From positions 1 to 64,000 of the forward strand of contig JAFXTO010000021.1 of the NCBI GenBank assembly GCA_017535725.1: 64,000 nucleotides of DNA, in the 5' to 3' direction. How positions within the stretch are numbered: the stretch's first letter is position 1; each line of letters begins with the position of its first letter. Source of the stretch: Bacteroidaceae bacterium. Lineage in GTDB: Bacteria > Bacteroidota > Bacteroidia > Bacteroidales > Bacteroidaceae. The notes beneath the pieces were generated by a model. The model had not been told where the DNA came from and did no database searches. It worked only from the letters and a program-made list of their open reading frames with translations. Position numbers and translations under genes: made by a program. Below are positions 9,237-58,309 of this stretch, in pieces.

Positions 9237-11678
9237 ATGAGTGTACACATTATTTATTACAAGGATGGGGCGAAATGGATGCGCCCCGTCCTCTCGCGCC
9301 CGGAGTATCTGGTGCTGAGGAACAGCGGTGACCAGATTGCCAACGTAGCGGCTATCCGGGGTGGCGACGAGACGAGGAAGCAACGGCTGGTGCAGATGAA
9401 CTACAGCTGCCTGCCCAACGACGACGGTTCGCTGCGAGGTTCCACCCGCATGAGCACCACCGTGGGCATGGACATCGACCACATCGCTCCGGAAGAGATG
9501 CTGCCGCTGCGCCAGCGCATCCTCGCGAAGAAGGAGGAGCTGGGGCTGCTGATGCTGGAGCTGAGTGCCCGCGGACAGGGCTATCACCTGGTGTTCAAGC
9601 GCCGGACGGAGCTGTCGCAGGAGGAGAACCTGCGCTGGGCGAGTGAGCTGCTGGGCGTAGAGTTCGACAAGGGGGCCAAGGACATCACCCGCGTATTCTT
9701 CACCACAACGGGGAGTGAGGAGGATTTGTTTTTTCTGGAGGATGAGATATTCAAAGACCCTCCCCCCGCCCTCCCTTGTAGGGAGGGAGTGGTCACCAAT
9801 GCAGGGCATGCGCAAGGGGGACATACTTCACAGCCAGCAGCACACAACGCGGACACCCAGTCTAATGTCAGCAATGCAGGACATGCGCAAGGAAACGTGG
9901 TTGAGAATGACGGAGCGCACAACGCGGACGCCCAGTCTAATGATACCACTCCCTCCCTACAAGGGAGGGTGAGGGGAGGGTCTTTTAAAGGCATCCCCTA
10001 CTCCTTGATTATTCAGGAATTCTGGCGCAGAACGGGCGGTGAGCCGGAGGAGGGTGAGCGCAACGACAAGCTGCATAAGCTGGCAGCAAATCTGCGCGCC
10101 ATCTGCGATGACTCGGAGGAGTGGCTGCTGGAGCTGATGCCGCGCTACGGACTCTCGGAGCAGGAGATGCGAGCCATCATCTACTCCGCCTGCAAAGAAC
10201 CCACCAAGGGGTCGCGCATGATGACGCAGATCGTCAATGCACTAATGAGAAGAACCGAAGAAGTTGATTTCCTTGACATTGATGACAGCAACTCTGATGT
10301 GACTGCTCCCTCCCTAACAGGGAGGGCGGGGGGAGAGTCCGCAAAGGTGTTTCGCACGCTTCCCATCGGCTTGAAGGAATCCCTCTCGGGTGTGCCCGAA
10401 CGGATGCAGATGCCCGTGCTGTGCTCGGTGCTGCCCATTGCCGCGGCCTACGCCGACCAGGTGGAGGTGGAGTACAGCGACGGCTTCCGCCAGCACCTGG
10501 GACTGATGTCCATCATCCGCGGCGAGCAGGCCAGCGGCAAGAGCGTCTGCAAGGCGGCGGTGGACGTGTGGAAACGGCGGTTCGACGAGGAGGACGCCTT
10601 GGCTCGCAAGCGCGAAGAGGAATGGAAGGAACGCAAGAAGGGTCGCAAGGCCAACGAGAAGGCTCCCGACGACCCGCACGTGCTAATACGGATGGTGCCC
10701 GTGACCATCAGCTGTTCCACCCTCCTGAAGCGCTTCAAGAACGCCCCAGGACACACGCTCTACAGCTTCGGCGAAGAGCTGGACACGCTGCGCAAGACCA
10801 ACGGAGCAGGCTCGTGGTCAAGCAAGTACGACATCTACCGCCTCTCGTTCGACCGCGGAGAATGGGGTCAGGACTACAACAGCGACCAGGCCGAGTCGGG
10901 AGTGGTGCCGGTGGCCTACAATTGGACCATCCTGGGCACCAACGGGGCGATGGCGAAGTGCTTCAAGTCGGACAACATCGAGAACGGTCTCTCCTCGCGC
11001 ATCCTCGTGTCCGAGATGCCCGACAGCAGCTTCCAGCGGATGCCCCGCTTCGGACGCCGCACGGCGGAGGAAGAGGAACGGATACAGGAGGCCGTGAGCA
11101 GGCTCAGGAGCTACAGCGGGTTCATCGACACGCCACGGCTGCGGAAAGCCATCGCCGAATGGGTGGAGCAGAAGCGTGTGGAGGCTGCCAAGGACATCGA
11201 CCGCGTGAAGGACACCTACCGCAGGCGTGCGGCAGTCATCGGATTCCGCTGCGGAGTGGTACACTTCCTGCTGACGCAGGAAAGTGGAAAAGCAAGCACG
11301 AAGAATGACAGAATCAGGGAACCGAAGTCAACGATAGACTTTGCCCTGATGATGGCCGAGTACTGCCTGCAACAGCAGATAGCCACCTTCGGAGATACCC
11401 TGCTGAGTCAGTTCACAGAGGCACGGGAAGAGTGCCAGCGCTATGGCGCCAACCACAGCATCTACGACCAACTGCCACCCACCTTCACCCTGGAAGACCT
11501 GCGAACCCTGAAGCGCGGACTCTGCGGAGAATCGGCTCTGAGGAAAATCATCAGCCGATGGTACAAGGACCAATGGATAGAGAAGGCTGACCGCTACCAC
11601 TGGAGGAAATGCCCCACCCCCGACCATCATGGAGGGGAGAAGGCTGACGCTCAGGAATGTGGACATTGTGACATGTGA
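9237..11678 (+). CDS. VirE_N (BT4734-like)/DUF3987 primase-helicase-like mobile-element protein
   Basis: The N-terminal domain (about 1-170) has MDIDHIAPEEM and SARGQGYHLVFKRR, features of the BT4734/VirE_N primase-like family. Residues about 365-700 are DUF3987, with a P-loop GEQASGKS at 429-436 and downstream IRMVPVTISCSTLLKRF, YSFGEELDTL and LSSRILVSEMPD. This pair of domains is common in Bacteroidales phage-like and integrative elements, where it is thought to serve replication. The linker between the domains contains three translated R41 palindromic repeats and a 25-aa tandem duplication, so an unstructured linker tolerates insertions. The ATG at 9237 is chosen over a TTG at 9207. The 9165-9230 leader contains several AAATCGTGAAAT-like direct repeats. 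The stop codon lies inside the right 28-bp inverted repeat. Confidence 0.85.
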   Translation: MSVHIIYYKDGAKWMRPVLSRPEYLVLRNSGDQIANVAAIRGGDETRKQRLVQMNYSCLPNDDGSLRGSTRMSTTVGMDIDHIAPEEMLPLRQRILAKKEELGLLMLELSARGQGYHLVFKRRTELSQEENLRWASELLGVEFDKGAKDITRVFFTTTGSEEDLFFLEDEIFKDPPPALPCREGVVTNAGHAQGGHTSQPAAHNADTQSNVSNAGHAQGNVVENDGAHNADAQSNDTTPSLQGRVRGGSFKGIPYSLIIQEFWRRTGGEPEEGERNDKLHKLAANLRAICDDSEEWLLELMPRYGLSEQEMRAIIYSACKEPTKGSRMMTQIVNALMRRTEEVDFLDIDDSNSDVTAPSLTGRAGGESAKVFRTLPIGLKESLSGVPERMQMPVLCSVLPIAAAYADQVEVEYSDGFRQHLGLMSIIRGEQASGKSVCKAAVDVWKRRFDEEDALARKREEEWKERKKGRKANEKAPDDPHVLIRMVPVTISCSTLLKRFKNAPGHTLYSFGEELDTLRKTNGAGSWSSKYDIYRLSFDRGEWGQDYNSDQAESGVVPVAYNWTILGTNGAMAKCFKSDNIENGLSSRILVSEMPDSSFQRMPRFGRRTAEEEERIQEAVSRLRSYSGFIDTPRLRKAIAEWVEQKRVEAAKDIDRVKDTYRRRAAVIGFRCGVVHFLLTQESGKASTKNDRIREPKSTIDFALMMAEYCLQQQIATFGDTLLSQFTEAREECQRYGANHSIYDQLPPTFTLEDLRTLKRGLCGESALRKIISRWYKDQWIEKADRYHWRKCPTPDHHGGEKADAQECGHCDM
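9756..9796 (-). repeat. R41 palindromic repeat, minus orientation, in coding sequence
   Basis: A 41-bp copy running from GACCC to GTCAC, with core CCCTCCCT...AGGGAGGG. It is translated in frame as DPPPALPCREGVVT inside the VirE_N/DUF3987 protein. It pairs with the plus copy at 9942-9982. Confidence 0.85.
9798..9947. repeat. 75-bp tandem duplication inside the DUF3987 gene linker
   Basis: Two 75-bp units (9798-9872, 9873-9947) encode two 25-aa copies, each containing NAGHAQG and HNAD-x-QSN. It lies between an R41 minus and plus copy. Removing one unit restores a 70-bp spacer, the same as the other R41 pairs. Confidence 0.8.
9942..9982 (+). repeat. R41 palindromic repeat, plus orientation, in coding sequence
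   Basis: A 41-bp copy with core CTCCCTCCCT-ACA-AGGGAGGG, ending in GGGTC. It is translated in frame as TPSLQGRVRGGS. It is the partner of 9756-9796. Confidence 0.85.
10299..10339 (+). repeat. R41 palindromic repeat, single plus copy, in coding sequence
   Basis: A 41-bp copy beginning GTGACTGCTCCCTCCCT and ending GAGTC, translated as VTAPSLTGRAGGES in the linker before the DUF3987 domain. No minus partner is visible about 70 bp upstream. Confidence 0.85.
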
Positions 11679-11694
11679 CTTTGTGACATTAAGG
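11667..11694. repeat. Right arm of the 28-bp inverted repeat
   Basis: Exact reverse complement of 51-78. It overlaps the last codons and stop of the DUF3987 gene. Immediately after it, 11711-11726 has a tandem GACATTCC GACATTCC. It may mark an island boundary or be a dispersed repeat. Confidence 0.8.
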
Positions 11695-11751
11695 AGATTT
11701 CTATTTAATCGACATTCCGACATTCCGAAATTTCGACAAATCAAAAACCCC

Positions 11752-12174
11752 ATGGAACTGATAATGAAACGCATAGCAAAGCGAAAGACCTACACGATAG
11801 GTAAGTTGTATATAGACGGGGAGCCCTTCTGCGACACCCTGGAACCCACCTGGCGCGACTACGCCAACGGCGCCTACAAAATGAAGGGCAAGAGCGCCAT
11901 CCCCGACGGCAGCTACGCCGTGGTCATCTCCTACTCACCCAAATTCCAGGAGTGGCTGCCCCTGCTGCTGGGTGGTCCCGAGTTCAACCGGAAGTGGCAG
12001 GGCGTCCGCATCCACGCTGGCAACAGCGCCAAGGACACCGAAGGCTGCATCCTCGTGGGCGAGAACCGCGAAGTGGGACGCGTGCTCGACAGCCGCCGCA
12101 CGCTGGCCCGGCTCATGAAGCGGCTGGCGGAACGACCCGAAGGGGAGGCGGTGAGGCTGAGGATAGAGAGTTGA
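11752..12174 (+). CDS. DUF5675 family protein
   Basis: A 140-aa protein with IPDGSYAVVISYSPKF, GVRIHAGNSAKDTEGCILVG and a C-terminal charged helix, the pattern of DUF5675, a family often found near lysis and cell-wall genes of phages and integrative elements. The conserved H-A-G-N and E-G-C-I-L-V-G segments suggest a small catalytic or ligand-binding fold; the function is not established. The ATG at 11752 is used; the ATG at 11764 (MKRIAKRK) is equally possible. It follows the VirE_N/DUF3987 gene and is convergent with the Crp/Fnr gene, with only 4 bp between stop codons. It probably marks the right edge of the accessory island. Confidence 0.8.
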   Translation: MELIMKRIAKRKTYTIGKLYIDGEPFCDTLEPTWRDYANGAYKMKGKSAIPDGSYAVVISYSPKFQEWLPLLLGGPEFNRKWQGVRIHAGNSAKDTEGCILVGENREVGRVLDSRRTLARLMKRLAERPEGEAVRLRIES

Positions 12175-12178
12175 GAAT

Positions 12179-12880: not shown

Positions 12881-12912
12881 TCCTTTATAGATAAATATTA
12901 TGTTTTACGGCA

Positions 12913-12944
12913 CAAAAATACACAAATATTTTCATTTTGGCAAA
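12913..12944 (-). promoter_or_regulatory. Promoter of the Crp/Fnr gene
   Basis: Read on the minus strand: TTTG (12944-12941), 20-bp spacer, TATTTTTG (12920-12913). Both Bacteroidetes boxes are perfect. It lies 33 bp upstream of the start codon. Confidence 0.8.
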
Positions 12945-12971
12945 CGAAATACAACTTTTACTTCGAAAAAT

Positions 12972-13002
12972 TTTCATGAATGACAATTAATTGCTAAATT
13001 TG
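12972..13002 (+). promoter_or_regulatory. Promoter of the glycogen operon
   Basis: The -7 box TAAATTTG at 12995-13002 has a weak -33 box TTTC (12972-12975) 19 bp upstream. The roughly 55-nt leader contains GTAGAAATCTAC and CTAC...GTAG words that can fold. Confidence 0.65.
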
Positions 13003-13065
13003 GGACGCCTAACGTAGAAATCTACTCCTTTTAGGTAGTAAAATCAACCATTATAAACCTAACTT

Positions 13066-15009: not shown

Positions 15010-15029
15010 TAAATAGGAGGAAACAACGT

Positions 15030-22161: not shown

Positions 22162-22168
22162 ATTCACT

Positions 22169-22445
22169 CGTCCGTACGTGTTGAGCATTTCGTCCGTACG
22201 TGTTGAGCTTGACGTCCATACGTGTTGGGCTTTTCGTCCGTACGTGTTGGGCTTCACGTCCGTACGTGTTGGGCTTTTCGTCTGTACGTGTTGGGCTTTT
22301 CGTCTGTACGAGTTTGACGATACGTCTGTACGAGTTTGACGATACGTCGGTACGAGCTTGACGATACGTCGGTACGAGCTTGACGATACGTCGGTACGAG
22401 CTTGACGATACGTCAGTATGTGTTTGGCTTAACGTCTAAACGTGC
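22169..22445. repeat. 22-bp tandem array, locus 1 (12.5 units)
   Basis: Twelve exact-period 22-bp units plus a partial one, consensus CGTC-N2-TACG-[TA]-GTTTG-like. Sub-families follow each other (GTTGGGCTTTT units, then GTTTGACGATA and GCTTGACGATA units), as expected from local duplication. No unique spacers, so not CRISPR. The core is shared with the array at 58375. Confidence 0.9.
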
Positions 22446-22474
22446 TATCGGTTCATCCTTCTCTCTCGTTCATA

Positions 22475-23456: not shown

Positions 23457-26400
23457 ATGATACACACAAGGAAACTACACACTCGGTGGGTGGCGCTGCT
23501 GGCGCTGCTGCTGGTGCCCCTATGGTCACTGGCTGTCACCATCGACCTGGCCGACGCCAACGGCAATGTGCTGCGCTACTCGTACAGCGGCACGGGCTCG
23601 GCCTCTGTGAGCAGTCTGGTCTCCGTCAGCGAGGACTCCGAGTTGGCGGGACACCTTATCATTCCTGCCACCATCACGGATGCAGACGAGGTGGTACATA
23701 GTGTCACTTCCATCGCCTCGAATGCCTTCAGCGGCAAGACGGAAGTGCTCTCTGTGGCTATCGGCTCGAACGTCATCACCATCAATGATTATGCTTTCAG
23801 CGGTTGCTCCAGCCTGACGGAAGTCACGGGTGGTGTTGCCGTCACGACCATCGGCAGAGAAGCCTTCCGCAGCACAGGGCTGACCAAGGCTTTCCTGCCC
23901 AACGCCGTGCAGACCATTGGCACTTCGGCCTTCATCGGCTGTCCTCTGAAGGAAATCGTCTTCGGTCCTAATGTTCAGAGTATCAGTTACGGGCAGTTCC
24001 GCAACTATAGTTCTGACATCCTGAACGTAGAGCGCATCGTCTTCAACGGCACCTACACTTCTGTTCCGTCCAGTTTCTGCACCAATTTCCCGAAACTGAC
24101 GGAAATCGTGCTGGGCGACAACATCACGTCCATTGGGGGCAATGCCTTTCAGGGCACGCCTCTGACATCGCTGACCCTGCCTTCAGGCCTCACCTCCATC
24201 AGCAGCTCTGCCTTCGAGAACTGCGACCGCCTGAAGAGCGTGGTGATTCCCGATAATGTGACTTCGCTCAGCAACTATGCCTTCTGCAGTTGCGACAGCC
24301 TGCAGCAATTGGTCATCGGTTCAAAGGTGACATCCATTGGCGACTACGCTTTCAGTGGTTGTGTCCAGCTGACGGACGTCACGGGTGGTGAGTCTCTGAG
24401 GACCATCGGTTCCAGTGCTTTCCGCAGCACGAAGTTGACCAAGGCTTTCCTCCCCGATGCCGTACAGACCATTGGCAGTGGCGCCTTCATTGGCTGTCCG
24501 CTGAAGGAAATCGTCTTTGGCCCGAATGTTCAGAGTATCAGTTACGGCCAGTTCCGCAACTACAGTTCTGATATCCTGAACATCGAGCGCATCGTCTTCA
24601 ACGGCACCTACAGCTCAGTTCCCAGCAACTTCTGTGCGAATTTCCCGAAGCTGACGGAAATCGTGCTGGGCGACAACATCACGTCCATTGGGAGCAGTTC
24701 TTTCCAAGGCACGCCTCTGACATCGCTGACCTTGCCTTCTGGCCTCACCTCCATCAACAGCAATGCCTTCGAGAACTGCGACCGCCTGAAGAGCGTGGTG
24801 ATTCCCGATCATGTGACTTCTGTCAGCAGCTATGCCTTCTGCAATTGCGACAGTCTGCAGCAGTTGGTTATCGGCTCTGCGGTGACCTCCCTCGGCGACT
24901 ACGCTTTCAGTGGTTGTGTCCAGCTGACGGACGTCACGGGTGGTTCCTCTCTGAGGACCATCGGTACCAGTGCTTTCCGCAGCACGAAGTTGACCAAGGC
25001 TTTCCTCCCCGATGCCGTACAGACCATCGGCAGTGGTGCTTTTATCGGCTGTCCGCTGAAGGAAATCGTCTTTGGTCCTAATGTTCAGACTATCAGTTAT
25101 GGGCAGTTCCGCAACTACAGTTCTGATATCCTGAACGTAGAGCGCATTGTCTTCAACGGCACCTACAGCTCAGTTCCCAGCAACTTCTGTACGAATTTCC
25201 CGAAACTGTCGGAAATCGTGCTGGGCGAGAACATTACGTCGATAGGCTCATCGACTTTCCAGGGAACGCCTATCACGTCTGTCTCCCTGCCTTCAGGCCT
25301 CACCTCCATCGGCAGCACAGCCTTCAATAACTGCGACCGCCTGAAGAGCGTGGTGATACCCGACAACGTGACCAGCCTCGGCAGCTCTGCCTTTGAAAAC
25401 TGCGACAGCCTGACACAGGTGACGCTGGGTGAGAAGGTGGCAACCCTCAATGACCACGTCTTCTACAACTGCAGCCGCTTGACCACCATCATCGGTGGTG
25501 ATGCCGTAACGAAAATAGGCAACTACGCCTTCTACAACACCAAACTGACCAAGGCTTTCCTGCCTGATGCCGTACAGACTATCGGCTCGGGTGCGTTCCG
25601 CTACTGTCCGCTGAAGGAAGTGGTATTCGGCCCGAACGTCCAAAGTATCAGCTATGGAATATTCAAAAATAATACCTCGGATGTCATCAGCGTGGAGCGT
25701 TTGGTCATCAATGGCACTTTCACGGAGATTCCCAGCAATATGTTCTCTTACTGGAAGATCAAGGAAGTGGTGATTGGCGAGAACGTTCAGACCATCGGCA
25801 GCTCTGCGTTCTACAACTGCGACAGCCTGGTGAGCGTGACGATTCCCAACAGTGTCACCTCCATCGGCAGCTCAGCCTTCCAAGACCTAATGAAGTTGCA
25901 GACTGTGGCCCTCGGTTCGGGCGTGACCTCCATCGGCAGCACCGCTTTCACCAACTGCCAGCAGCTGACCACCGTCACAGGTGGCGAGTCGCTGAAGACC
26001 ATCGGCTCCTCCGCCTTCGAGAAATGCTATGCGTTGCAAGCCTTCGATGGCCACAACAGCCTGCAAACCATTGCTGAATATGCCTTTTATAATTGCTCCG
26101 GCCTGACGGAACTGACTGGCTTGGAAGCCGTGAAGACCGTCAACTACTACGCTCTGTACAATTGTTCGAAGCTGACGGAACTCACTTTCGGAACCGCCTT
26201 GACCTCTTTCAACTATCAGAGTAACTATACAGACCAATACGGTCCCTCCAACTTGCGCTACCTGACACTGCCCTGCGGTGCCGTTCCCTTTACCTCCAGT
26301 GGCACCAACGGCTTGCCCACGGGCTTGCTTATCTATGTGCCGGACAGCCTCTTGGAGACCTACCGCGCGGAATCGAAATATTCCCGCTTCCGCTTCATGG

Positions 26401-29400: not shown

Positions 29401-30347
29401 AGTGGAACAGTCTGCAACTCTATGACCACAGCCGTCAGGACTACAGCCGCAGTAACACGAGTCTCTACCGGATGTACCACGACGGCAGCAATTGGACCTA
29501 CAACAGTTCTGCCTATTTCACGCTACAGAACGGTGAGTTCAGAGTCACCACCAGCAATGTGCTCTATCCGCAGCGTGGCGAGCCCATGTTGCTGATACCC
29601 TCTACCTCCAGTGCCTACATGACACCTATTGTCGTACAATTCGACTGGGCCGACGGCGACGTTAATGCCGACCTGACTGTTGACGTCACCGACCTGCAGA
29701 GCGTCGTGTACTACGCCATGAACTACAGCAAGCTCAGCGGCAAGACCTTCAACTACACGGCTGCCAACGCCAACAACGACCAGTATATCGACGTTCGCGA
29801 CGTGGTGTCCTGCGTCAACGGAATCCTGGCTTTCGAAGAGCCCGAGGTTCCCGCAGGCGTGCGCCCGTTCCTTATTAAAGAATATACTCAGGCCTGCAAC
29901 GGAGTGGCCATCGAGGGCGGCTGTCTGCGACTGGCCAACGAAGACGAGGTGGCAGCACTGCAGCTGACACTGCGTAACCAGGTGGCCGACGACCTCTCTC
30001 TGGGCTCCGACATCAGAGGCTTCCGTCTGGCAAAGAAGCAGGTGGGCAGTGACACCCGTGTGATTCTATACAACCTCGACGGCAACGTCATCAATGCAGG
30101 CGAACACGACCTGCTGACGGGCGTTTCACCAGAGGCTTACATCACCGCAGTACGTCTCACCGACAGCGAAGCCGACTACCTCGAAGTCGCCATCCGTGAG
30201 CAGGTGACCAGCATTTCTGAAATGGAAAATGAAGAATGGACTGAAGTGTACGATGTGCAAGGTCGCCGCATCACGTCTCTGAAGAACGCACCGTCAGGTG
30301 TTTATATCATCAAACAAGGTAATAAACAGTTTAAGATTAAGAAGTAG
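23457..30347 (+). CDS. Giant BspA-like LRR surface protein with dockerin-like tail
   Basis: A 2296-aa secreted protein with signal peptide MIHTRKLHTRWVALLALLL (cleavage near residue 26). Residues about 60-1790 are dozens of 23-aa type-5 (BspA/Treponema pallidum) leucine-rich repeats of the form IP..VTSIG..AF..C..L. Three near-identical 185-residue blocks (DNA 23817, 24372, 24927; exact 555-bp period) are followed by a related fourth block of 486 bp. Residues about 1800-1930 hold classical LRRs (INLTNNNLRGPL, SLDLGNNYL). Residues 2066-2130 are a dockerin-like pair of EF-hand-type loops (DGDVNADLTVDVTDL, ANANNDQYIDVRDVV). The C-terminus (VYDVQGRRI...GVYIIKQGNK) is a sorting-type tail. Likely an adhesin or protein scaffold on the cell surface. 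An R41 repeat begins at the stop codon. Confidence 0.92.
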   Translation: MIHTRKLHTRWVALLALLLVPLWSLAVTIDLADANGNVLRYSYSGTGSASVSSLVSVSEDSELAGHLIIPATITDADEVVHSVTSIASNAFSGKTEVLSVAIGSNVITINDYAFSGCSSLTEVTGGVAVTTIGREAFRSTGLTKAFLPNAVQTIGTSAFIGCPLKEIVFGPNVQSISYGQFRNYSSDILNVERIVFNGTYTSVPSSFCTNFPKLTEIVLGDNITSIGGNAFQGTPLTSLTLPSGLTSISSSAFENCDRLKSVVIPDNVTSLSNYAFCSCDSLQQLVIGSKVTSIGDYAFSGCVQLTDVTGGESLRTIGSSAFRSTKLTKAFLPDAVQTIGSGAFIGCPLKEIVFGPNVQSISYGQFRNYSSDILNIERIVFNGTYSSVPSNFCANFPKLTEIVLGDNITSIGSSSFQGTPLTSLTLPSGLTSINSNAFENCDRLKSVVIPDHVTSVSSYAFCNCDSLQQLVIGSAVTSLGDYAFSGCVQLTDVTGGSSLRTIGTSAFRSTKLTKAFLPDAVQTIGSGAFIGCPLKEIVFGPNVQTISYGQFRNYSSDILNVERIVFNGTYSSVPSNFCTNFPKLSEIVLGENITSIGSSTFQGTPITSVSLPSGLTSIGSTAFNNCDRLKSVVIPDNVTSLGSSAFENCDSLTQVTLGEKVATLNDHVFYNCSRLTTIIGGDAVTKIGNYAFYNTKLTKAFLPDAVQTIGSGAFRYCPLKEVVFGPNVQSISYGIFKNNTSDVISVERLVINGTFTEIPSNMFSYWKIKEVVIGENVQTIGSSAFYNCDSLVSVTIPNSVTSIGSSAFQDLMKLQTVALGSGVTSIGSTAFTNCQQLTTVTGGESLKTIGSSAFEKCYALQAFDGHNSLQTIAEYAFYNCSGLTELTGLEAVKTVNYYALYNCSKLTELTFGTALTSFNYQSNYTDQYGPSNLRYLTLPCGAVPFTSSGTNGLPTGLLIYVPDSLLETYRAESKYSRFRFMAIGAAEDYAVTTTEGGQLQEKIEADGAAEEVMELKIIGPINGTDIDYIHRYMTNIEVLDLEEAEIVNDGDSYHRWKHAGNTSTQYQSSSYNTQNNVVGSFMFANLTGLRKLVLPAGVTSIGSYAFSDCGRLTEITIPDGVTSIGSYAFSYAFDSSKCPRPTTLHLPAQLTSLGSYAFYYMKAPQSIEIPEGVETINEYTFSYCGARNVTLPEGLKTISQYAFYSSSVQNINLPSTLETIGNRAFYYSSVRSITFPDALKTIPEYCFYNCSNLGDVTFSEGQETIGQYAFQSCSNLKTITFSEGLQTISQYAFYECQNLKAVHLPQSLKTISNDAFNRCYRLEEATLPDALETMGNYAFSNCDSLTTFTFPETITIVPEYALAYSDKLQTINLASGVRRISSYAFDGCFNLKSFDFDQYTKLNQIYGYSFRGTGLKEVDLPDRIDTLYVSAFRNCKSLKRAKMPTGVDYVASDLFNGCDSLEQVVMHDGINRINSNAFNGCKSLPTIALNDGITLISDGAFYGCSTLELPNRLLPPNLTTINSEAFYGCSKLQLDAYPEGLQNIESSAFRECSSLTNGNLPAGLKKLDSNSFRGSGLTSVVIPEGITTLGTSVFESCKSLVNVTWPADQKVIPNYTFYGCYNMADPNLPDVVTEIGYQSFYNCNFKTFHFPTSLVTIGQQAFEYAYGLTEISLPISLRTIKQYAFRGTKLRHVEIPDSVTTLEGYVFYDCDSLRTAYLGRCMNYGASTYFTYFYECDSLKLVRIYAGTPPTMSSNYYINRYYRNCVLEVPAGVDSLYREADIWKDFKEIRTFLTGDKLDAIDYAILKRLYELWDGDNWTHKWDLETDDRFIGKWYGVTFEGDHIKTINLTNNNLRGPLTHDVFDLPALTSLDLGNNYLYAKLDTVLADDFSDSKMTRIQFYSNLLEGDLYPFVSKFSALTYLSVSYNQLTAISQPISKATLQSAGSNLWFSDQFVNYKTNKPFVSEKYPARQLQFGEPFEVEWNSLQLYDHSRQDYSRSNTSLYRMYHDGSNWTYNSSAYFTLQNGEFRVTTSNVLYPQRGEPMLLIPSTSSAYMTPIVVQFDWADGDVNADLTVDVTDLQSVVYYAMNYSKLSGKTFNYTAANANNDQYIDVRDVVSCVNGILAFEEPEVPAGVRPFLIKEYTQACNGVAIEGGCLRLANEDEVAALQLTLRNQVADDLSLGSDIRGFRLAKKQVGSDTRVILYNLDGNVINAGEHDLLTGVSPEAYITAVRLTDSEADYLEVAIREQVTSISEMENEEWTEVYDVQGRRITSLKNAPSGVYIIKQGNKQFKIKK
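23817..26036 (+). repeat. 555-bp tandem repeats within the LRR gene
   Basis: Anchor words ACGG[AC][AC]GTCACGGGTGG recur at 23817, 24372 and 24927, and a divergent anchor lies at 25482: spacing exactly 555 bp (185 codons). The next anchor is 486 bp on (25968), shorter by exactly one 23-codon LRR. Units 2 and 3 are nearly identical at DNA level, indicating recent duplication or gene conversion. Confidence 0.9.
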
Positions 30348-30387
30348 ACCCACCCCCCGCCCTCCCTGTGAGGGAGGGAGTGGTTAC
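30347..30387 (-). repeat. R41 palindromic repeat, minus orientation, at a stop codon
   Basis: A 41-bp copy from GACCC to GGTTAC; its first base is the last base of the LRR gene's TAG stop. Partner plus copy at 30457-30499; spacer 69 bp, with the next start codon inside it. The GC-rich hairpin could also limit read-through. Confidence 0.88.
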
Positions 30388-30426: not shown

Positions 30427-33400
30427 ATGAAAGCAATTAGTTCCTATTTGCAAAAGTATATACTCCCCTCCCTCATAGGGAGGGGCAAAGGGGTGGGTCT
30501 TCTGCTGCTGTTCTTGCTTATCAGCGGAATAGCCTTTGCCCAGACCAACGTATTGCGAATTGGCGAAGTGACCTATCCTGCCGGTAAGACGGCAACGGTG
30601 CCCATTGAGCTGGAGAACCAGAGCGACATTGTGGCAGCACAGTTCGTTATCTCTACGCCCTATCCGCTCAAGGCTTATACCGACGAACAGGGTAATGAGG
30701 TGGGTCTGATGAAGTTGAATCCACAGCGCGCTGGCAACCACGCCGTCAGTGTAGTGCAGACCTACAGCAGCGGCAATTGGCGTCGCTACCGCGTCATGAT
30801 TTACTCCGAGACGAACGAGAAGTTCAGCGGTAGCAGCGGCACCCTGCTCACCCTGCAGATGGAGATGCCCGAAACGCTGACCAACGGCCAGACGCTCAGT
30901 GTCTCGTTCTACGAGGACACCAACAACTACTACGTCTCCAGCCACGGCGTGACCATTCTCTCCGACCGCGAGGGAAACAATGTCGTCTCAAGCACCGTCA
31001 ACGGCAAGATCACCATCGAAGTCATCCCGCGGCCTGATATCATCCCGTCGGACGTGAAAGTAACTCAGACGCTGGCCCGTCCGGGCGATCAGCTGGACTT
31101 CACGTGGACTGTCGCCAACCAGGGCGACCTCGCTACGGGAGCAGGCTGGACCGAAAAGCTGTTCCTCGAGAACGAGAACAAGAACCGCGTATATATCGGC
31201 ACCACCGCCTACGAAGGAACCCTCGAAGTGGGAGCCAGCGTGCAGCGTTCCTGCTCCATCGACCTCGAAGAGTTTCCGGGCATCAGCGGAGCCTGCCGAC
31301 CCGTCGTGCAACTGGTGCCAGCAGCTAATTGCGGAGAAATCGCACTGGATCAGGACAACAACACCGCTGTAGGAACGGCCTACAGCCTGAACGTGCGCAA
31401 ATACCTGCAGCTGACCGCTTTCAAGAACGCCATCCCCGAGAAGAACGTCAACAACGGCTACGCCTGCGAGTTGCGCCGCTCTGGTGACCTCAGCGTCACG
31501 CAGACCTTCGCCGTCATCACCCGCGATGCAGCAGGAAACACCAACCGCCTGAAGGTAAACTCCGACGGCAGCGGAATGGTACGCTTCGACAAGAACGTCT
31601 CGAAGGTAAACTTCTACCTCTATCCCATCAACAACGACGATATCAACGTGGATCCGCGCGTGGCCATCATCGTCAATCAGGACAAGAACAATGGCTACGA
31701 CACCGTTACGGACACCGTTAGCCTTGAGGACGATGACCTCATTCCCCTCACCCTCGTCACCGATAAGGGTGAATACAACGAGGGCGAGAAAATCCGGGTC
31801 ACGGCCAGCGTGCCTGAACACTATTATCCGGGCGACATCTACGTCTATCTGAATGTGGAACAGCCCAAGCGATTCAAGCTGCCGCAGCGAATCGTCATTC
31901 CTGACGGCGAGATTTCGGGCTCGGCATACGTTGATGTCCTGCAGGACCAGACGCCCGCCAACGACTTGAACATCACCCTCACGGCCACTGCCGACCGACA
32001 CGCGAAAGCTTCGACCGTCTTCACCCTGAAGGACGACGACACGCCCGCAATCTCGTTGACCCTCTCGCCGACCACCGTCAGCGAGGGCGCCGGTCCCTCT
32101 GCCATCCTCGGCACCGTAACCCGCACCGGCGTGACCAACAACAAGATCACCATCAAGCTCTCTGACGACGGCAACAACGACATCTATTATTCCCAGACCA
32201 CACTAACAATGCCCGCCGGAACGACGACCATCAACTTCCCGTTGGGCGTTCGCGACAACGCCACCGTCGATGGCGACCGCGTGGTGAATATCCGTGCTGC
32301 CGTATATATCACGGACTGTAACTGTTCGGCAATCGGCGACAAGCAGGCCTCGGTCGAAGTGCCTATCACCATCACCGACGACGATGGTCAGGCACTCAGC
32401 CTGAGCCTCAACCGCAGCACGATCCTCGAAGGTGACGAAACGGGTGCCACGCTGACGGTAAGCCGCAACACGACGGAGAACAGCGAACCGCTGACGGTCA
32501 CCCTCGAGAGCGATGACCCGGATCTCGTCTTCCCCGCCACCGTCACGATACCCTCGGGCAAGACCACGACCACAGCCGTCATCAAGGCTCCTGCCAACAG
32601 CACCGAGGAAGGCGACCGCACCGTCAGCATTCTGGCCAAGGCTGCCAACTTCAGCAGCGGTTCGGCCTGGCTGCTCATCAGCGACCGCACGCTGCCTGAT
32701 GCCATCATCGAGAGTGCCACGCTGAGTCAGACGGAAGTGGCTGCCGGCAGTTCGGTCACCGTGACCATCGTCCTCAAGAATATCGGTGCTGCCGCCCTGC
32801 CAAAGGGTGCGCTGGTGCAGGTTCTGCAGAACGGCAGCGCCGTCAGCAGCATGAACACCACAGAGGCCATACCGCAGGGCGAGACGCGCACGATGACGGC
32901 TCATATCCAGGCCAGCGACGTTCCTGGCAGCTACACCATCAAGGCTGTCGTCAACCCGAAAAACGCCTTGGCCGAACTGCTCTACGTCAACAACTCGTCG
33001 GAGCAGCAAACACTCGCCGTCACATCGCTCTACAGCTTCACCATCGCCTCGGACAAGAGCGCCTACAAGGACGACGACATCATTACCCTCTCGGGCACCG
33101 TGACTGCTACGGGCAGCTCATCAGTAGCAGATGTGCGCGTGGAGCCGTACGTCATCTTCAACGGACAGCGCAAGGCCCTGGAATGCCTGACCGACGCCAC
33201 TGGCCATTTCAGCGCTATCTACGAGCGTCCCGAGGGATTCCGCGGACACTTCACCTACGGCGTTTGCAACCCGGACGAGAAGGTGAGCACCGCAATGGGT
33301 TCGTTTGACGTTTATGGCATGGAGCGCACCTCCACCAATTACATCAAACACGAGCTCTTCAAGGACGCACCCTACCAGGGCACTATCGGCATCAAGAACC

Positions 33401-52524: not shown

Positions 52525-54921
52525 ATGCCTATGCGCAGCAAACGAACCATACTTCATCTTTTATTCTTCCTCCTCGCATCCGCACCGCTGTTAGCTCAGG
52601 AGGAGCAGGATGAGATTCCTGCCGACCTGCCCGAAGGCACGGTGTTCAACGACTCCTTGGAAGTTGTCGTGGACAGCACGCAGATGGAGGTGGGCATTGT
52701 CGATACGAAGATTCACCTGCTCTCGCGCACCTACGGCGATAGCATCGTCCTGCGCTGGGCGCCGGAGGACTATGCCACGTGGCGCTATGTGAACCGCGTG
52801 GGTATGGACGTGCTGCGCTACAGCGAGGACCGTCCTTTCGACGCCGACACCCTCGCTCATTGCCTGCGCCCCTACACCCTGGAGCAGTTCCGCCAGCGCT
52901 ATCCCACCACGGACACCCTCGCCATGACGGCGGCAGGACTGCTCTACGACGAGAACCGCACACGCCCCACCGCCACCAAGAACCCACCGGGCTCCCTCGG
53001 CTCGCTCTATGAGATTTATCAGGAACAGCAGATGCGCTACGCCTTCGCCCTGTTGACCACCGAATGGCGGCGCGACTTGGCAGATGCGCTGGCGATGCGC
53101 CTGGTAGATAAGACCGCCAAGCGGGGCAAGACCTACGAGTACATCGTCCGACCCTCGGAGATAGACACCACCGGCCAGATGATTGTCCGTACAGGACACA
53201 TCCCAGAACTGAAGAACGAGCGCTACAAGCCCGAAGCATTCACGACCACCCTCACCGACACCACCATCGCCGAAAACAGCGTCCAGCTAACATGGAACCG
53301 CGGTCGCTATTCCACCTTCGAAGTAGAGCGCCGCGGCCCCCTCTCCCCCTCCGGCGCCCCCTTACCCCCCTCCACCTCCTCCCTCTCCCCCGCTTCCCCC
53401 GCTTCCGCCTCCCCCTCTGGCACCCCCGCCTCCCCCTCTACTTCCAAGGCCACTGTGCCCGACGGGTCACCGTCGGGTAACTGGACCCGCGTCACCCCCA
53501 AACCCTACATCGACATGTCGCCCAACACCCAAGGCCAGCCGGACACCCTCTATACGATGACCGACCAGGTGCCGCAAGTGGGCCTCTATGACTACCGCCT
53601 GCTGGCACATGATGCCTTCGGCGACCTCACCGAGCCGACAAAGCCCTTCCGCGTCTGGGTGCGCGACATCACACCGCCTTCGCCGCCTGCCATCACCCTC
53701 ATCACCATCGACCGCCGCGACTCCACAGACCTCTCCAAGGGCGTCTTCGCCACCTTCCACCTGCGCAAGGACACCATGGAGGCGGACTACACGGGCTGGC
53801 ATCTCGTCTATTACCACGAGAAGGACACGGAGAAGCAATGGCGACGCCTCTCGCCGCAGCAGACACCTGCCGACACGCTGTTGACCCTCGACGTGACGGG
53901 AATCTCCACGGGAATGGTCGCCGTGGCGGCTTCGGACACGGCCAACAATACCTCTTATTCCATCGCCACGATGTTGCGCCTCGAAGACCTGAAGGCACCG
54001 GGCGTGCCTCAGAACCTGCGGGCGCAGGGCAATCCCCTGCAGGGAACCATCACTCTGGACTGGGATGCACCCGAAGACCTCGATATCGACTACTATGAGG
54101 TGGCATACGCCAACGACTCCACGCACCGCTGGGTGCTCGCCACGGAGCAGAAGCTGCACGACACCCACTTCGTCGACACCATCGACGTCACCGCCAACCA
54201 GAAATATATATATTATAAGGTACGCGCGATAGACTACAGCACCAACGAGGGATTCTACTCCCCCGTGCTGCAGGTCATCCGTCCGACGCTGATTCCGCCC
54301 GTCGTGGCGCACATCGATAGTACTTGGGTCGATGACAATGGCATCCACATGCGGTGGATTACTTCGGCAGAACATTTCGTATCGCACCACCTCGTCTGGC
54401 GACGCCTGCATACCGACAAGGAGTGGACGCTGCTGGCCGTGTGCAACGCCGACTCCCTGGCAGACTACGACTATGAGCTTACGCTGCACGACAAACCCGA
54501 ATACAACCGCGAGGCACGCTACGACTACGCCATAGAAACGATCTCCTACTCCGGCGTTAGCAGCGAAAAGAGCCTGGCCTACAGCGTCCGCTGGGAGGGA
54601 GATGCCGTGTTCTCGCTGCCCCTGAAGCTCTACGGCGAATACCTCGAAGACAAGCAGGAGACGCGCCTCGTGTGGGAGATGCCGCAGGAGCCGCCCTACA
54701 AGGGACGCTGGTACTTCTGTATCTTCCGGCAGGGACCTGATGACAAGGCTCCCACCTTCCTGATATCTGCCGCCAAGGACGACCGCATCTTCAGCGACCA
54801 CCTCCTCGACCCCGGTCAGCAAGCTTCCTACTTCATCCGCGTGAAGTACGCCGACGGCCGCCAGAGCGAGGACTCCAATACGGTGACGGTGAAGAGACCC
54901 ACCTCCACCTCCACCCAGTAG
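52525..54921 (+). CDS. Secreted fibronectin type III repeat protein
   Basis: A 798-aa protein with signal peptide (TILHLLFFLLASAPLLA, cleavage near residue 25). The mature part has several fibronectin-III-like beta sandwiches: RTYGDSIVLRWAPEDYATW near 65, TIAENSVQLTWNRGRYSTFEV near 250, QGTITLDWDAPEDLDIDYYEV near 505, and GIHMRWITSAEHFVSHHLVW near 605. A Pro/Ser-rich low-complexity insert (about 272-310) carries an in-frame palindrome (53458-53477). A DITPPSPPAIT linker precedes the later repeats. It starts 9 bp after the TANFOR-type gene, so co-translation is likely. It probably forms part of a surface complex with that protein. The last codons and stop lie in a degenerate R41 minus copy. 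Confidence 0.82.
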   Translation: MPMRSKRTILHLLFFLLASAPLLAQEEQDEIPADLPEGTVFNDSLEVVVDSTQMEVGIVDTKIHLLSRTYGDSIVLRWAPEDYATWRYVNRVGMDVLRYSEDRPFDADTLAHCLRPYTLEQFRQRYPTTDTLAMTAAGLLYDENRTRPTATKNPPGSLGSLYEIYQEQQMRYAFALLTTEWRRDLADALAMRLVDKTAKRGKTYEYIVRPSEIDTTGQMIVRTGHIPELKNERYKPEAFTTTLTDTTIAENSVQLTWNRGRYSTFEVERRGPLSPSGAPLPPSTSSLSPASPASASPSGTPASPSTSKATVPDGSPSGNWTRVTPKPYIDMSPNTQGQPDTLYTMTDQVPQVGLYDYRLLAHDAFGDLTEPTKPFRVWVRDITPPSPPAITLITIDRRDSTDLSKGVFATFHLRKDTMEADYTGWHLVYYHEKDTEKQWRRLSPQQTPADTLLTLDVTGISTGMVAVAASDTANNTSYSIATMLRLEDLKAPGVPQNLRAQGNPLQGTITLDWDAPEDLDIDYYEVAYANDSTHRWVLATEQKLHDTHFVDTIDVTANQKYIYYKVRAIDYSTNEGFYSPVLQVIRPTLIPPVVAHIDSTWVDDNGIHMRWITSAEHFVSHHLVWRRLHTDKEWTLLAVCNADSLADYDYELTLHDKPEYNREARYDYAIETISYSGVSSEKSLAYSVRWEGDAVFSLPLKLYGEYLEDKQETRLVWEMPQEPPYKGRWYFCIFRQGPDDKAPTFLISAAKDDRIFSDHLLDPGQQASYFIRVKYADGRQSEDSNTVTVKRPTSTSTQ
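53458..53477. repeat. N8-GTCA-N8 micropalindrome in coding sequence
   Basis: CCCGACGG, loop GTCA, CCGTCGGG: perfect 8-bp stem. Translated as PDGSPSG at the end of the Pro/Ser insert. Same geometry and loop as 37715-37734 but a different stem sequence. Confidence 0.7.
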
Positions 54922-54942
54922 GGAGGGGTGCAAATACCTGAC
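54896..54942 (-). repeat. Degenerate R41 copy spanning a stop codon
   Basis: Begins GACCC, contains GGGAGGGG and ends TGAC, with a CCACCT-rich left arm. The TAG stop of the fibronectin gene is inside it. Partner plus copy at 55013-55053; spacer 70 bp. Confidence 0.6.
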
Positions 54943-54970
54943 AAGATTTGCATACTTATAAGAATAGAAT

Positions 54971-55708
54971 ATGAAACGACTCTATACACGACTGAAAGCG
55001 CTACTCACAAAAGTGACTGCTTCCTCCCTAACAGGGAGGGCGGGGGGAGAGTCTGTTCTTTTTCTGATCCTGCTCCTTTCCTCCTGTGGCCTCATCGACG
55101 TGGAGCCCGACTCGGAGGCACGGGTGCCGACGAAGATGTACTTCTCGCCCGACACCGTCTTTGTCATGGTGGGCGACACCTTCGTGGTGCGTCCCACCTT
55201 TGAGCCGGACACCATCAACAACAAGTCCTGTTTCTGGACTTCCCTTGATATGGACATCGTAAGCCTGAAGAACGACACCCTCATCGCCGAACAGGAAGGC
55301 TGGGCACGCATCGTGGCAGCTTCCGTCGCGGCGCTCATGACCGATAGCGTCGATGTCTATGTCATGGAGCCCTGGGTGATGTCCGAGACCAAGTACCCCT
55401 ACGAAATGGTGGTCTATGCCGACGTCAGCGTCCACGGCGAGCCCGTGACGGAGGATATGACCCTCGCCGCCTTCAGCGGCACCAGCCTGCGCGGAGTGGG
55501 CACGCCCATCACTGTAGGGCCGAAAACCCTCTGGCGCTTCCGCGTCTACAACGACTTCGAGTTCACCCTACCCTACGCCGAGACCCCCATCACCTTCTGG
55601 GTCTATGACCGAAAAACCCTCCTGCGCGAGATGTTCCCGGCCTACATCATCTACAACGGCGAGACCTACAGCACCCCGTCCGAGCCGTTGGAGTTGAAGA
55701 TTGAATAA
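54971..55708 (+). CDS. Surface-locus lipoprotein (245 aa)
   Basis: Lipoprotein with lipobox LSSC at residues 36-39 after the hydrophobic core VLFLILLLSS. The n-region is unusually long because it contains a translated R41 repeat (VTASSLTGRAGGES). The mature part (about 40-245) is beta-rich: FVMVGDTFVVRPTFEPDTI resembles a Big-type fold, and the second half (VYADVSVHGEPVTEDMTLAAFSG, FTLPYAETPITFWVYD) resembles the repeated beta module of the 40890 protein. Function unknown; likely anchored in the outer membrane near the barrel and the giant proteins. Flanked on both sides by R41 minus copies near stop codons. Confidence 0.78.
   Translation: MKRLYTRLKALLTKVTASSLTGRAGGESVLFLILLLSSCGLIDVEPDSEARVPTKMYFSPDTVFVMVGDTFVVRPTFEPDTINNKSCFWTSLDMDIVSLKNDTLIAEQEGWARIVAASVAALMTDSVDVYVMEPWVMSETKYPYEMVVYADVSVHGEPVTEDMTLAAFSGTSLRGVGTPITVGPKTLWRFRVYNDFEFTLPYAETPITFWVYDRKTLLREMFPAYIIYNGETYSTPSEPLELKIE
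55013..55053 (+). repeat. R41 palindromic repeat, plus orientation, in a lipoprotein signal peptide
   Basis: A 41-bp copy beginning GTGACTGCTTCCTCCCT and ending GAGTC, translated VTASSLTGRAGGES. It starts 42 bp after the ATG. Almost identical to the 10299 copy. Confidence 0.9.
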
Positions 55709-55748
55709 GCCCCCACCCTACCCTCCCTTAGAGGGAGGGAGCAATGAC
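55709..55748 (-). repeat. R41 palindromic repeat, minus orientation, directly after a stop codon
   Basis: A 40-bp copy beginning right after the TAA of the 54971 gene, with core CCCTCCCT-TAG-AGGGAGGG and ending ATGAC. Partner plus copy at 55820; spacer 71 bp. Confidence 0.88.
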
Positions 55749-55777
55749 CAGACAAGATTTGCAAAACATAGAGCCCC

Positions 55778-58309
55778 ATGAAACTTATGATACGACATAT
55801 CCGAAGACTGCTTGCAAAAGTGACCGCTCCCTCCCTCACAGGGAGGGCAGGGGGTGGGTCTGTCCTTCTTCTCTTGGCTGCTTTGCTGCCAATGAGTTGT
55901 GTCCTCACCATGGAGGACTACACGCTGATTCCCGAGGAGGAGCGAGGAGTGGGCCAACCCTATACCTATGAGGATAGCCTCGTCACCTGCACCTACCAGT
56001 ACCGCGAGGGTGTTGTGCCTATCACCGAACGCTGGTTACCCTACGTACTGGGTTCCCAGGACTCTACCGTTTATATTTCCGACAATATCCCTGAGGACTG
56101 GTTGCCGAAGCCCGGTGAGTGCGTCAGTGCCGGCTGTACCCGCACCTTCCCATACGGTCTCTGCCACCGGGTGCTCTCCATGGAAAGAGGCAATGGCATG
56201 ATTGCAATGAACCTCACCGATGCCACCGTGGACGATGTGTTCAAAGAACTGGATATTGAGCTGAATATGGACAACTACGAAGTGCCAGAGATGGACCTTA
56301 GTGAAGACTCCACAGACAATCCCTCCTACGTGCCACGCGTCACCCGTGGAGGTGTCGAAGACCCGCATATCGTGATACTGTCCGATGGCAGCATCATGGA
56401 TTTTACGTATGTTGATGCAGCACAGGCCTCTCCTGAACACAAATACCTTAAGCCACGTACACGTGACGGTAGTTTCGATGACGGCGACCATTCCATCAAC
56501 GATACCACGCGGGAATACAACAAGGTACATTGGCAATTCACATTCAATCACGAAGATGGAATAGAGTTGGGAAAGAGTTCGGGCTTCGCCATCAAGCCGT
56601 CATTTGAATTTAACTTAGATAAGAACATCGTGATCAATGCCCACAAAGAGTCGTGGAAGTCAAAGGAGGAGAGTGTGGAATGGTCTGAGAAATACGTAAC
56701 GTCCACTTATCAGTTAAGGGGAAAAGTATCTGCCGAATATAATCCGTTAGAGCGAGAAAAGAATAGAAACAAAATTTCTCAAAAGGAATGGAGGATACTT
56801 TCTGCGATGGCCAAGAAAGTGAGACAAGGCTTAAACAATAGAACCAGGTTACATTCATTCGATCCCAGAAATTTGTATATCAGTTTTCCACCTCCTATTC
56901 CTGCTGCCATTCGTATACATCTTGGCGTTAACTTGAGTGTCAGCTTCGGAGGCTTTTCCGATTTGATTTACAAAGATGTAGAGAAGGTAGAGCGTGTTAC
57001 GACCAAGCGTAAGGGCAATACGGCTGTACAGACCTCGGAATTGATTAGAGAAGCCACGAGAACTTCGTCTGGACTCTTTGGAGGTGCGGCAGAAGGCACG
57101 ATAGAGGGGCGCATTGGTATAGGTTTCCTCATAGGGAAATTAGGAACTGGCGTGGGATTAGATGTTGGTGGAGGCCTCGAAGTGAAAGTGACATTTGACT
57201 GCTTGACCGATGCCATCGGCAAGGACGATAATCCCGTTGACACTATTTACAATAAGTCTGGCTTTCACTTTTCTGTTACCGGATTTATCGATTTCGAAAT
57301 CTTTGCAGACTTCAAGGGAGAACCTTACATCAGTACACGTGTAGCACCAGAAGATTTGCGCTGGACCCTGAAAGAAACTAATTGGTATATCTTTCCGCAA
57401 GTTGATAACAGGGCTTCTACTGGTATCTACAAATACGACTATAGCGACAAAGACAACCCTGTCGTCCACCATTCCCGTAAACTGTCGTTCCGCTCCGGCT
57501 ATGGATTCTCGGCTTTCAATGATATTGTCTATCCATTGTTAATGGTTTATGAGAACGACCTAAAGACATCTGTTCCCAAGCAATTAGCACCGCGTAGCTA
57601 CACCGGCAAACAGGCGAAGAAAGATAACCTCTATCCACTCGAGCCGAAGGAAGTCTATTACTTTGACTATGATTCAGACCCAAGGAAGGCCCAAACAATA
57701 TGGTTCGTACCAGCCCTCAAGCATGCCGATGGCTCCATTGACGAATATCGCTCTTTGGTGACGAAGTGGGGAAGCAGTTCTGTTCTTGATGAGCCTATCA
57801 TGAAGCACATCGAACTCTACCAGTATAGCTCCAATGAGAAGGACGATACCAAGCACCTCTTTGATAAGGACTGGGACTTCTACCACATTGAAGACATCCT
57901 TGAGATTACCAGTGTTCCGCAAGAATATCTCAAGGTAGGATACATCATCGACGTCGTGGATGCCAAGAACCGCAATGTCATCAAGAAATCGGACGTGTAT
58001 GTGATGGGGCATACCCTGCAATCTACAGGAACGCAGGTCGTAAAGCCTGGTATCTACAAGGTCTATTTCGACATAGGCATACCTTCCGACGGACGTGGGC
58101 CTGTCACGCATCCCCTCGTCCCCAGCGTCAAGGCATATCCCATCCTTACCGTGCAGCCCTACTACGAATTCTACGATGTTGGAGAAGGCAAATACAAGAA
58201 AGTCACCTGCAAGGAGAAGTGCATCAGTCTCAAGTTCCCTTACACCACTGACTACAGCTACAAGAAGGCGAATTTCACCACCGAAATCAGTCAGCCCGTG
58301 CGGCAATAA
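55778..58309 (+). CDS. Surface-locus lipoprotein (843 aa)
   Basis: Lipoprotein with lipobox LPMSC (Cys41) after SVLLLLAALL. The n-region again includes a translated R41 copy (VTAPSLTGRAGGGS). The mature protein is not recognised: an Asp/Glu-rich part (about 170-240), a Lys/Arg-rich helical part (about 280-370; KESWKSKEESVEWSEKY), a Gly-rich beta stretch near 425-465 (GIGFLIGKLGTGVGLDVGGG) and a long beta-rich C-terminal half. DNA from about 56500 on is less GC-rich than the start. In frame after the TAA stop, the sequence continues with 16 sense codons (VYGYNVEKTDFTFEGE) to a TAG, so the present stop may be a recent truncation. Last gene of the surface series. Confidence 0.75.
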   Translation: MKLMIRHIRRLLAKVTAPSLTGRAGGGSVLLLLAALLPMSCVLTMEDYTLIPEEERGVGQPYTYEDSLVTCTYQYREGVVPITERWLPYVLGSQDSTVYISDNIPEDWLPKPGECVSAGCTRTFPYGLCHRVLSMERGNGMIAMNLTDATVDDVFKELDIELNMDNYEVPEMDLSEDSTDNPSYVPRVTRGGVEDPHIVILSDGSIMDFTYVDAAQASPEHKYLKPRTRDGSFDDGDHSINDTTREYNKVHWQFTFNHEDGIELGKSSGFAIKPSFEFNLDKNIVINAHKESWKSKEESVEWSEKYVTSTYQLRGKVSAEYNPLEREKNRNKISQKEWRILSAMAKKVRQGLNNRTRLHSFDPRNLYISFPPPIPAAIRIHLGVNLSVSFGGFSDLIYKDVEKVERVTTKRKGNTAVQTSELIREATRTSSGLFGGAAEGTIEGRIGIGFLIGKLGTGVGLDVGGGLEVKVTFDCLTDAIGKDDNPVDTIYNKSGFHFSVTGFIDFEIFADFKGEPYISTRVAPEDLRWTLKETNWYIFPQVDNRASTGIYKYDYSDKDNPVVHHSRKLSFRSGYGFSAFNDIVYPLLMVYENDLKTSVPKQLAPRSYTGKQAKKDNLYPLEPKEVYYFDYDSDPRKAQTIWFVPALKHADGSIDEYRSLVTKWGSSSVLDEPIMKHIELYQYSSNEKDDTKHLFDKDWDFYHIEDILEITSVPQEYLKVGYIIDVVDAKNRNVIKKSDVYVMGHTLQSTGTQVVKPGIYKVYFDIGIPSDGRGPVTHPLVPSVKAYPILTVQPYYEFYDVGEGKYKKVTCKEKCISLKFPYTTDYSYKKANFTTEISQPVRQ
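55820..55860 (+). repeat. R41 palindromic repeat, plus orientation, in a lipoprotein signal peptide
   Basis: A 41-bp copy GTGACCGCTCCCTCCCT-CAC-AGGGAGGG...GGGTC, translated VTAPSLTGRAGGGS. It starts 42 bp after the ATG, as in the preceding gene. I use it as the reference copy. Confidence 0.92.

Follow-up and report, generated by a model that had tools for sequence, protein, structure and literature searches.

What kind of element places 41-nt palindromic sequences in and between the genes of a Bacteroidaceae bacterium, and how do those genes stay readable? The question is raised by a stretch of 64,000 nucleotides (hereafter the window; GenBank assembly GCA_017535725.1, contig JAFXTO010000021.1, positions 1 to 64,000), in which copies of such a sequence, R41, stand in inverted pairs at gene junctions and within an open reading frame (ORF). 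A sequence-only reading of the window described them as a family resembling REPINs (inverted pairs of repetitive extragenic palindromic, REP, sequences), with a fixed spacer of ~70 bp, that uses or exchanges gene starts and secretion signals and may be served by a RAYT transposase. Most probably, with a probability of about 0.8, the R41 copies are arms of a miniature element that forms a hairpin and that inside genes takes the form of a cassette of 38 or 39 codons, subject to selection for keeping the reading frame.

The window is contig C28 of a draft genome, G000, with 2,905,156 bases and 76% completeness (other G numbers denote further genomes, and L numbers denote loci or stretches). The R41 core CCTCCCTNNNAGGGAGG has 88 exact matches in this genome, and the reversed pattern, used as a control, has none. 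Arms were counted in 47 stretches (376,464 bases, window included) chosen around exact oriented copies, so that degenerate copies elsewhere are missed; a 41-column matrix made from 82 exact copies detected 119 arms. Where two neighbouring arms lie closer than 500 bp, they follow the order minus-then-plus, with their tails outward, in 44 of 50 cases (p ~1e-20 against 1/4). The 88 core matches against zero in the control, together with this orientation, exclude chance. The spacers of the 44 pairs are at most 45 bp in 12 cases, 46-90 bp in 18, and more than 90 bp in 14, and thus the 70-bp spacer, presented earlier as fixed, is one class without a single genome-wide peak. Lone arms are present as well as pairs.

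The arm has a sharp outer edge, GAGTC and then T or C, and columns further out are mixed in the 82 copies. The inner ends are of two kinds, A, resembling TCAAATACATTCTGCTCC, and B, resembling GGTNACCGCTCC. In the 31 pairs with both arms scoring at least 30, the combination is A+B in 18 and B+B in eight, one end is unclassified in five, and A+A is absent. In the short unit, a core of 33-36 nt lies between an arm and its inverted counterpart, and most units measure 113 or 116 bp; with terminal inverted repeats of 41 nt and no room for a transposase gene of its own, the unit resembles a MITE (miniature inverted-repeat transposable element). The one unit that was folded closes into a single, extended hairpin (-51.1 kcal/mol, z = -12.6). 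Both this fold and the excess of inverted pairs bear out the earlier description of a REPIN-like family. Queries across short units retrieve near-full-length matches, including the core, from dozens of scattered positions in the genomes of relatives, which is the behaviour expected of a transposing unit.

The main result is the relation of the element to coding frames. ORFs are here the coding-score calls of this analysis and not curated genes, and all genomes are incomplete drafts. The frame count includes 101 arms scoring at least 30, with the 18 of 119 scoring below 30 left out. Wholly within ORFs of at least 200 residues lie 64 of the 101 arms, compared with 77% under random placement in the same stretches, and thus coding DNA is only mildly avoided. 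The frame is fixed for each orientation in 59 of the 64 in-ORF arms (41 of 44 on the same strand, 18 of 20 on the opposite one), with SAPSLTGRAGGES and DSPPALPVREG as the typical readings. Peptides predicted for CTP synthase, MutS2, or valyl-tRNA synthetase would span DSPPALPVREG or APSLTGRAGGES. Pairs within ORFs add whole triplets in 14 of 17 cases, versus 8 of 27 for other pairs.

The same regularity is seen in the units themselves. We collected 28 short units, comprising all 12 own pairs with spacers of at most 45 bp and all 16 units from relatives; the latter come from 16 loci hand-picked from the match list, of which 15 have full-length units. The length is 2 mod 3, mostly 113 or 116, in 24 of the 28 (the L354 unit being trimmed one base off), so that together with one flanking base the insert amounts to whole codons. 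In 22 of the 28 units, the frame in the GAC phase is free of stops on one strand or both, and 11 of these have it free on both; for the remaining four frames, 13 of 112 are open. Of the 16 dispersed units of relatives, 13 have the GAC-phase reading inside ORFs of at least 400 codons, and the unit occurs in either direction relative to reading, with the A end or the B end first. Within a gene, the unit would act either way round as a cassette in the frame starting with GAC (DSPPALPVREG...SAPSLTGRAGGES).

The interrupted or extended host proteins named by Pfam include CTP synthase (pyrG), UvrA, MutS2, a transporter, the glycine cleavage P-protein (gcvP), Mfd, the tryptophanyl- (trpS), valyl- (valS), and Glu/Gln-tRNA synthetases, a TonB receptor, an S9 peptidase, a helicase, and a sensor kinase; a second UvrA host was identified by similarity to solved structures. 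Judged by open frames, essential proteins carry the predicted peptide. An example is provided by CTP synthase, in which residues 3-129 and 170-602 align with a solved structure, and residues 130-169 are extra. At the first pyrG site, the R41 unit is found in none of 13 relatives. Seven of these have only 12-34 nt at the place, and a different inverted insert occupies the same loop in G197, G192, G194, G003, G174, and G018. The five length differences that were calculated by hand are all divisible by three, and 12 aligned PyrG proteins (own included, with the 11 relatives 77-90% identical to it) remain open through the inserts. Repeated occupation of this loop could reflect an insertion hot spot or selection for the few loops that tolerate an insert; we favour the latter.

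The second pyrG site has another architecture. Here two arms, 151 nt apart, lie in two loops and flank a conserved native segment, GGTMRLGAYEC. The arrangement is common to G174 and G194, whereas the same two loops carry arms of another type in G192 and G180; one of these loops holds another insert in G197, G018, and G179, G019 has other repeat-like DNA, and G003, G041, G043, and G152 have none. In uvrA, the pair encloses 105 nt, and the solved protein has ~30 non-aligning residues there; the enclosed DNA is probably of native origin. In G194 and G174 (L198 and L199), a further insert that keeps the frame, FPAKTFVSPSGDERGA, occupies a third CTP synthase loop (alignment columns ~320-345).

At gene junctions, we can observe filled, empty, and decayed sites. 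The trpS junction was compared between G000 and 29 relatives. The same element is found in G174, G157, G180, and G197 (with the right arm cut in the last one), arms of another palindrome type surround a related N-terminus in G192, and none of these arms is seen in the other 24 relatives, of which 20 have 11-200 nt between the flanks and four were read over the 100 nt before trpS. Another GC-rich repeat, around CGGGCCTCCCGCCC, stands in place of the element at L120 and L121 (G043 and G175). Among 13 relatives compared at the ispD junction, G174, G192, and G197 have arms, the copy in G179 is decayed, and nine have none; in G043 and some other relatives, an overlap of the two genes is seen by eye. 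The own IspD (L049:5669-6500) also has a long Ser/Pro stretch and more repeat peptides read in frame (LSPNPSPIREERSLTPNPSPRGEG). A fusion is seen at an FGGY kinase followed by a NUDIX gene. Of the 11 relatives whose junction can be read, 10 have a kinase that ends at its own stop before the NUDIX gene, and in several of them the two overlap as ATGA; in G000 and G157, the element joins both predicted genes into one ORF. The tldD/pmbA-like ORF L038 was considered as another fusion and rejected, since its frame also runs on in the relatives that were compared.

Thus, relatives lack the element at sites orthologous to those of copies in G000, copies in predicted genes keep frame and length, and one copy fuses two predicted genes. 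Comparison of orthologues had been proposed in the sequence-only reading, and sites without the repeat do exist; the empty or differently occupied sites at trpS, ispD, pyrG, and kinase-NUDIX, taken together with the dispersed full-length relatives, support mobility.

Junction copies end at the upstream stop and run on in frame after a predicted start codon. Among the 37 arms that are not wholly in ORFs, 21 overlap or adjoin a stop codon on the tail side, where AG of the element can finish a TAG stop. In the 70-bp spacer class, 14 of 18 pairs are not within one ORF (Fisher test of spacer class against context, p = 0.06), a tendency that links this class to junctions. Arms that overlap or follow a same-strand predicted start, by up to ~110 nt, number 25, although at L039 and L058 (the latter before der) the real start is probably just past the arm. 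A hydrophobic stretch follows the arm in 11 of these 25, or in 9 of 23 without the two doubtful cases. The earlier placement of R41 inside signal peptides thus holds for three window copies and fails as a rule for the family. N-terminal copies also occur in trpS, valS, the Glu/Gln-tRNA synthetase, and gcvP.

A natural explanation is that the unit transposes as hairpin DNA, possibly with a RAYT acting in trans, and lands at many places. Selection would retain copies that preserve reading, in loops, linkers, and gene junctions, and would thereby have favoured element variants open on either strand. Some pairs may have arisen when two arms settled around native DNA, as at the second pyrG site and probably in uvrA. 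A more far-reaching version, which we regard as evenly poised, describes a hairpin family with protein-coding DNA as its habitat, with length steps of three and one stop-free frame, often on both strands, which colonises the same loops and junctions across the genus beside rival palindromes and lengthens, re-starts, and fuses proteins.

Several observations weigh against the hairpin-cassette explanation. By eye, no consistent target-site duplication was noticed in the flanks of arms from the matrix scan. The native start codon and a few codons at the trpS, ispD, and kinase-NUDIX junctions are gone and not merely displaced, and hence clean simple insertion is insufficient for everything. Because the arms of the second pyrG site flank native coding DNA, not every pair is one transposed unit. 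The GAC-phase frame is open on both strands in only those 11 of the 28 short units, and three of the 16 units from relatives (L348, L353, and one of two at L347) are not in the usual frame in a long ORF. Translation of the inserts in host proteins is judged from open frames. Finally, the R41 core is found in none of 30 RAYT-like loci (flanks of up to ~1.5 kb, shorter at contig ends), so that no mobiliser is linked to the element and a RAYT is a candidate at most.

The last point bears also on the first alternative, a canonical REPIN family moved by its own RAYT-like transposase, which we consider possible but doubtful. G000 has four RAYT-like genes, among them the window gene at 202-1263, and the protein encoded by the latter is 42% identical over 112 positions to a paralogue whose DNA barely passes the Y1_Tnp cut-off (the paralogue protein scores 21.8 against 23); the proposed RAYT-like nature of the window gene is therefore upheld. 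The NCBIfam REP_Tyr_transpos matches of the RAYT-like genes are under the family cut-off, and DprA, named earlier in connection with these proteins, has no Pfam match in them at E up to 10. R41 copies average 20.2 in 51 genomes with a RAYT-like match and 3.0 in 29 genomes without one (p = 2e-4, uncorrected for kinship and from incomplete genomes). This correlation, the inverted pairs, and the hairpin fit a RAYT-served REPIN family, whereas the majority of arms are intragenic, 13 genomes have a match but no copy, 3 of the 29 without a match have at least 10 copies, and the core is absent both from the 30 loci and from the surroundings of the own RAYT-like genes C22, C24, and C37. The suggested service by a RAYT is thus favoured by copy number and opposed by location. 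A palindrome inside a RAYT-like gene, TCTGCGGNNNNNCCGCAGA, was rejected as a cognate REP; G000, G043, and G018 have one copy each, and none of 24 genomes has more than two. The RAYT-like genes L336 and L335 of G000 have their own internal palindromes (CACCTGCGGGAAAACCGCAGGTG and similar) or peptide repeats (ATVASGQAGAPSTP). A separate IS200-like protein of 179 residues (L083:6602-7141, motif YIKGQKEHH) resembles TnpA of subclass 1.2 as described in PMC6006769.

In another scenario, which appears rather unlikely, single arms are mobile, the second lands inverted near the first, and short-core pairs later move together. It would explain the two arms around 151 nt of native sequence at the second pyrG site, the arms of another type in the same loops of two relatives, the probably similar case of uvrA, and the lone arms, but independent arms should not give the observed 44 of 50 minus-then-plus neighbours, and the short unit matches at full length at many dispersed places in relatives. 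Improbable is a structured RNA, either removed or active at the mRNA level, with coding as a by-product. The high stability of the hairpin agrees with it, as does the abutment of stop codons, usual for REPs according to PMC3733652; yet lengths in multiples of three and a fixed in-gene frame are the expectation for translated inserts, and the window has no Rfam match. Even less credible is the proposal that the family serves to exchange gene starts and secretion signals. Three window copies do precede hydrophobic N-terminal stretches, and the junction elements of trpS and ispD carry a start codon, but most arms are not N-terminal and lie inside genes, fewer than half of the N-terminal ones precede a hydrophobic stretch, and others belong to cytosolic enzymes. 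An origin of the copies by gene duplication or faulty assembly can be practically dismissed: region L048 contains several near-identical copies, but copies in unrelated genes and in many separately assembled genomes are not explained by either. The hairpin-cassette explanation is the one we retain.

In a scan of 150 genomes, the R41 core is present in 56 of 91 genomes of the genus, an uncultured one of gut bacteria (own included), with up to 88 copies each, and once each in 3 of 59 genomes of other genera; the reversed control gives one match, in one of the 150. A stricter pattern was searched in a collection of 84,980 species, and among the matches listed (80 of 111 stretches) the taxa are only Bacteroidales, Bacteroidaceae, Prevotellaceae, or Prevotella drafts, many of them ruminant draft genomes. 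A phage or plasmid carrier was considered and discarded, the long pattern being found in one viral contig and in no plasmid.

The copies in the window (Table 1) illustrate both settings of the element. Arms lie within 1-2 nt of the places noted originally, the minus arms at the window junctions adjoin stop codons, and the in-frame N-terminal readings of the plus arms are right for ORFs 30427, 54971, and 55778. The spacer of the pair at 9755-9983 contains, by eye, an imperfect tandem duplication of ~75 bp; its host, ORF 9207-11678, has weak similarity to DUF3987, under the Pfam cut-off. Only the plus arm is clear in the pair reported at 54896/55013. Apart from R41, the window has 22-bp tandem repeats (ACGTCCATACGTGTATGAAGAT and relatives) at 22168-22453 and 58352-58571.

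Table 1. R41 arms and the RAYT-like gene in the window.
Feature	Position	Strand	Remarks
RAYT-like (Y1 HUH) protein	202..1263	+	Pfam and NCBIfam scores below curated cut-offs
Minus arm of in-gene pair	9755..9795	-	Reads in frame as DPPPALPCREGVV inside ORF 9207-11678
Plus partner arm	9943..9983	+	Reads in frame as TTPSLQGRVRGGS, same ORF
Lone plus arm	10300..10340	+	Reads in frame as TAPSLTGRAGGES, same ORF
Minus arm at stop of BspA-like leucine-rich repeat gene 23457-30347	30346..30386	-	First arm bases finish TAG
Plus partner arm, four-C variant	30458..30498	+	In frame from ~codon 11 of ORF 30427-38784, before its hydrophobic stretch
Degenerate minus arm over stop of ORF 52525-54921	54895..54930	-	By eye; below matrix cut-off
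Plus arm at N-terminus of ORF 54971-55708	55014..55054	+	In frame; hydrophobic stretch, then Cys
Diverged minus arm at stop of ORF 54971-55708	55707..55747	-	Matrix
Plus partner arm at N-terminus of ORF 55778-58309	55821..55861	+	In frame

R41 works both like a REPIN and like a Rickettsia palindromic element (RPE); the comparisons that follow are with these systems as described in the papers cited. RPEs are ~150 bp long and lie in frame in unrelated genes, where the host proteins tolerate them (PMC10969869, PMC3733652). The likeness drawn originally is confirmed by description, since R41 is also palindromic and in frame in unrelated ORFs that stay open. R41 differs in belonging to another phylum, in its GC-rich arms and two-arm unit with two inner ends, in arms that also flank native DNA, and in its gene fusion and junction forms. 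Intragenic REPs or REP dimers are known in Opitutus terrae, R. conorii, and others; dimers in uvrA, tRNA synthetase genes, and similar hosts code for 20-30 residues, REP ends supply TAG stops, and two recB genes were hit at about the same site (PMC3733652). Those REPs are mostly intergenic, in contrast to R41, and the column counts of the 82 copies contain, by eye, no GTAG or CGTC tag beside the arm ends. REP insertions are also described inside tnpA genes of subclass 2.4, which is abundant in Bacteroidetes (PMC6006769). With REPINs, R41 shares inverted doublets, a hairpin, and a genome that contains RAYT-like genes. REPINs lie outside genes (in SBW25, 14 of 1,067 occurrences overlap genes; PMC3116915) and are linked to their RAYT, whereas neither is true of R41, and for this reason we do not file it as a REPIN.

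Two further systems are more distant. Coding palindromes of Nematomorpha mitochondria (PMC6649704) likewise place inverted-repeat arms in essential coding genes, but those arms encode conserved protein, while R41 arms are dispersed insertions in variable loops. PARCELs (PMC2996958) are palindromic coding repeats thought to be mobile, as R41 is, but they are tandem repeats of 25 residues, many in membrane-targeted proteins, and R41 forms inverted pairs in housekeeping genes. We recognised no description of such elements in Bacteroidales in the available parts of the open-licence literature. Intragenic palindromic mobile elements are known mainly from Rickettsia, and the precedents are RPEs and intragenic REPs. 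The strongest new points are the coding-compatible unit, the presence of different types of palindrome in the same protein loops, the arms enclosing native coding DNA, and the fusion made by the element from genes that are separate in relatives.

Bacterial mobile DNA is usually seen as intergenic, whereas the R41 family resides mainly inside genes, including those for CTP synthase, UvrA, and tRNA synthetases. A single genus displays empty, filled, decayed, and differently occupied sites, and this makes several questions testable: how a repeat becomes protein, how loops are lengthened, how neighbouring genes fuse, and whether the reading frame selects the surviving variants of an element. The family also calls for caution in annotation, because N-terminal or loop peptides of predicted proteins, such as PSLTGRAGGES, can be transposed DNA and not conserved motifs.

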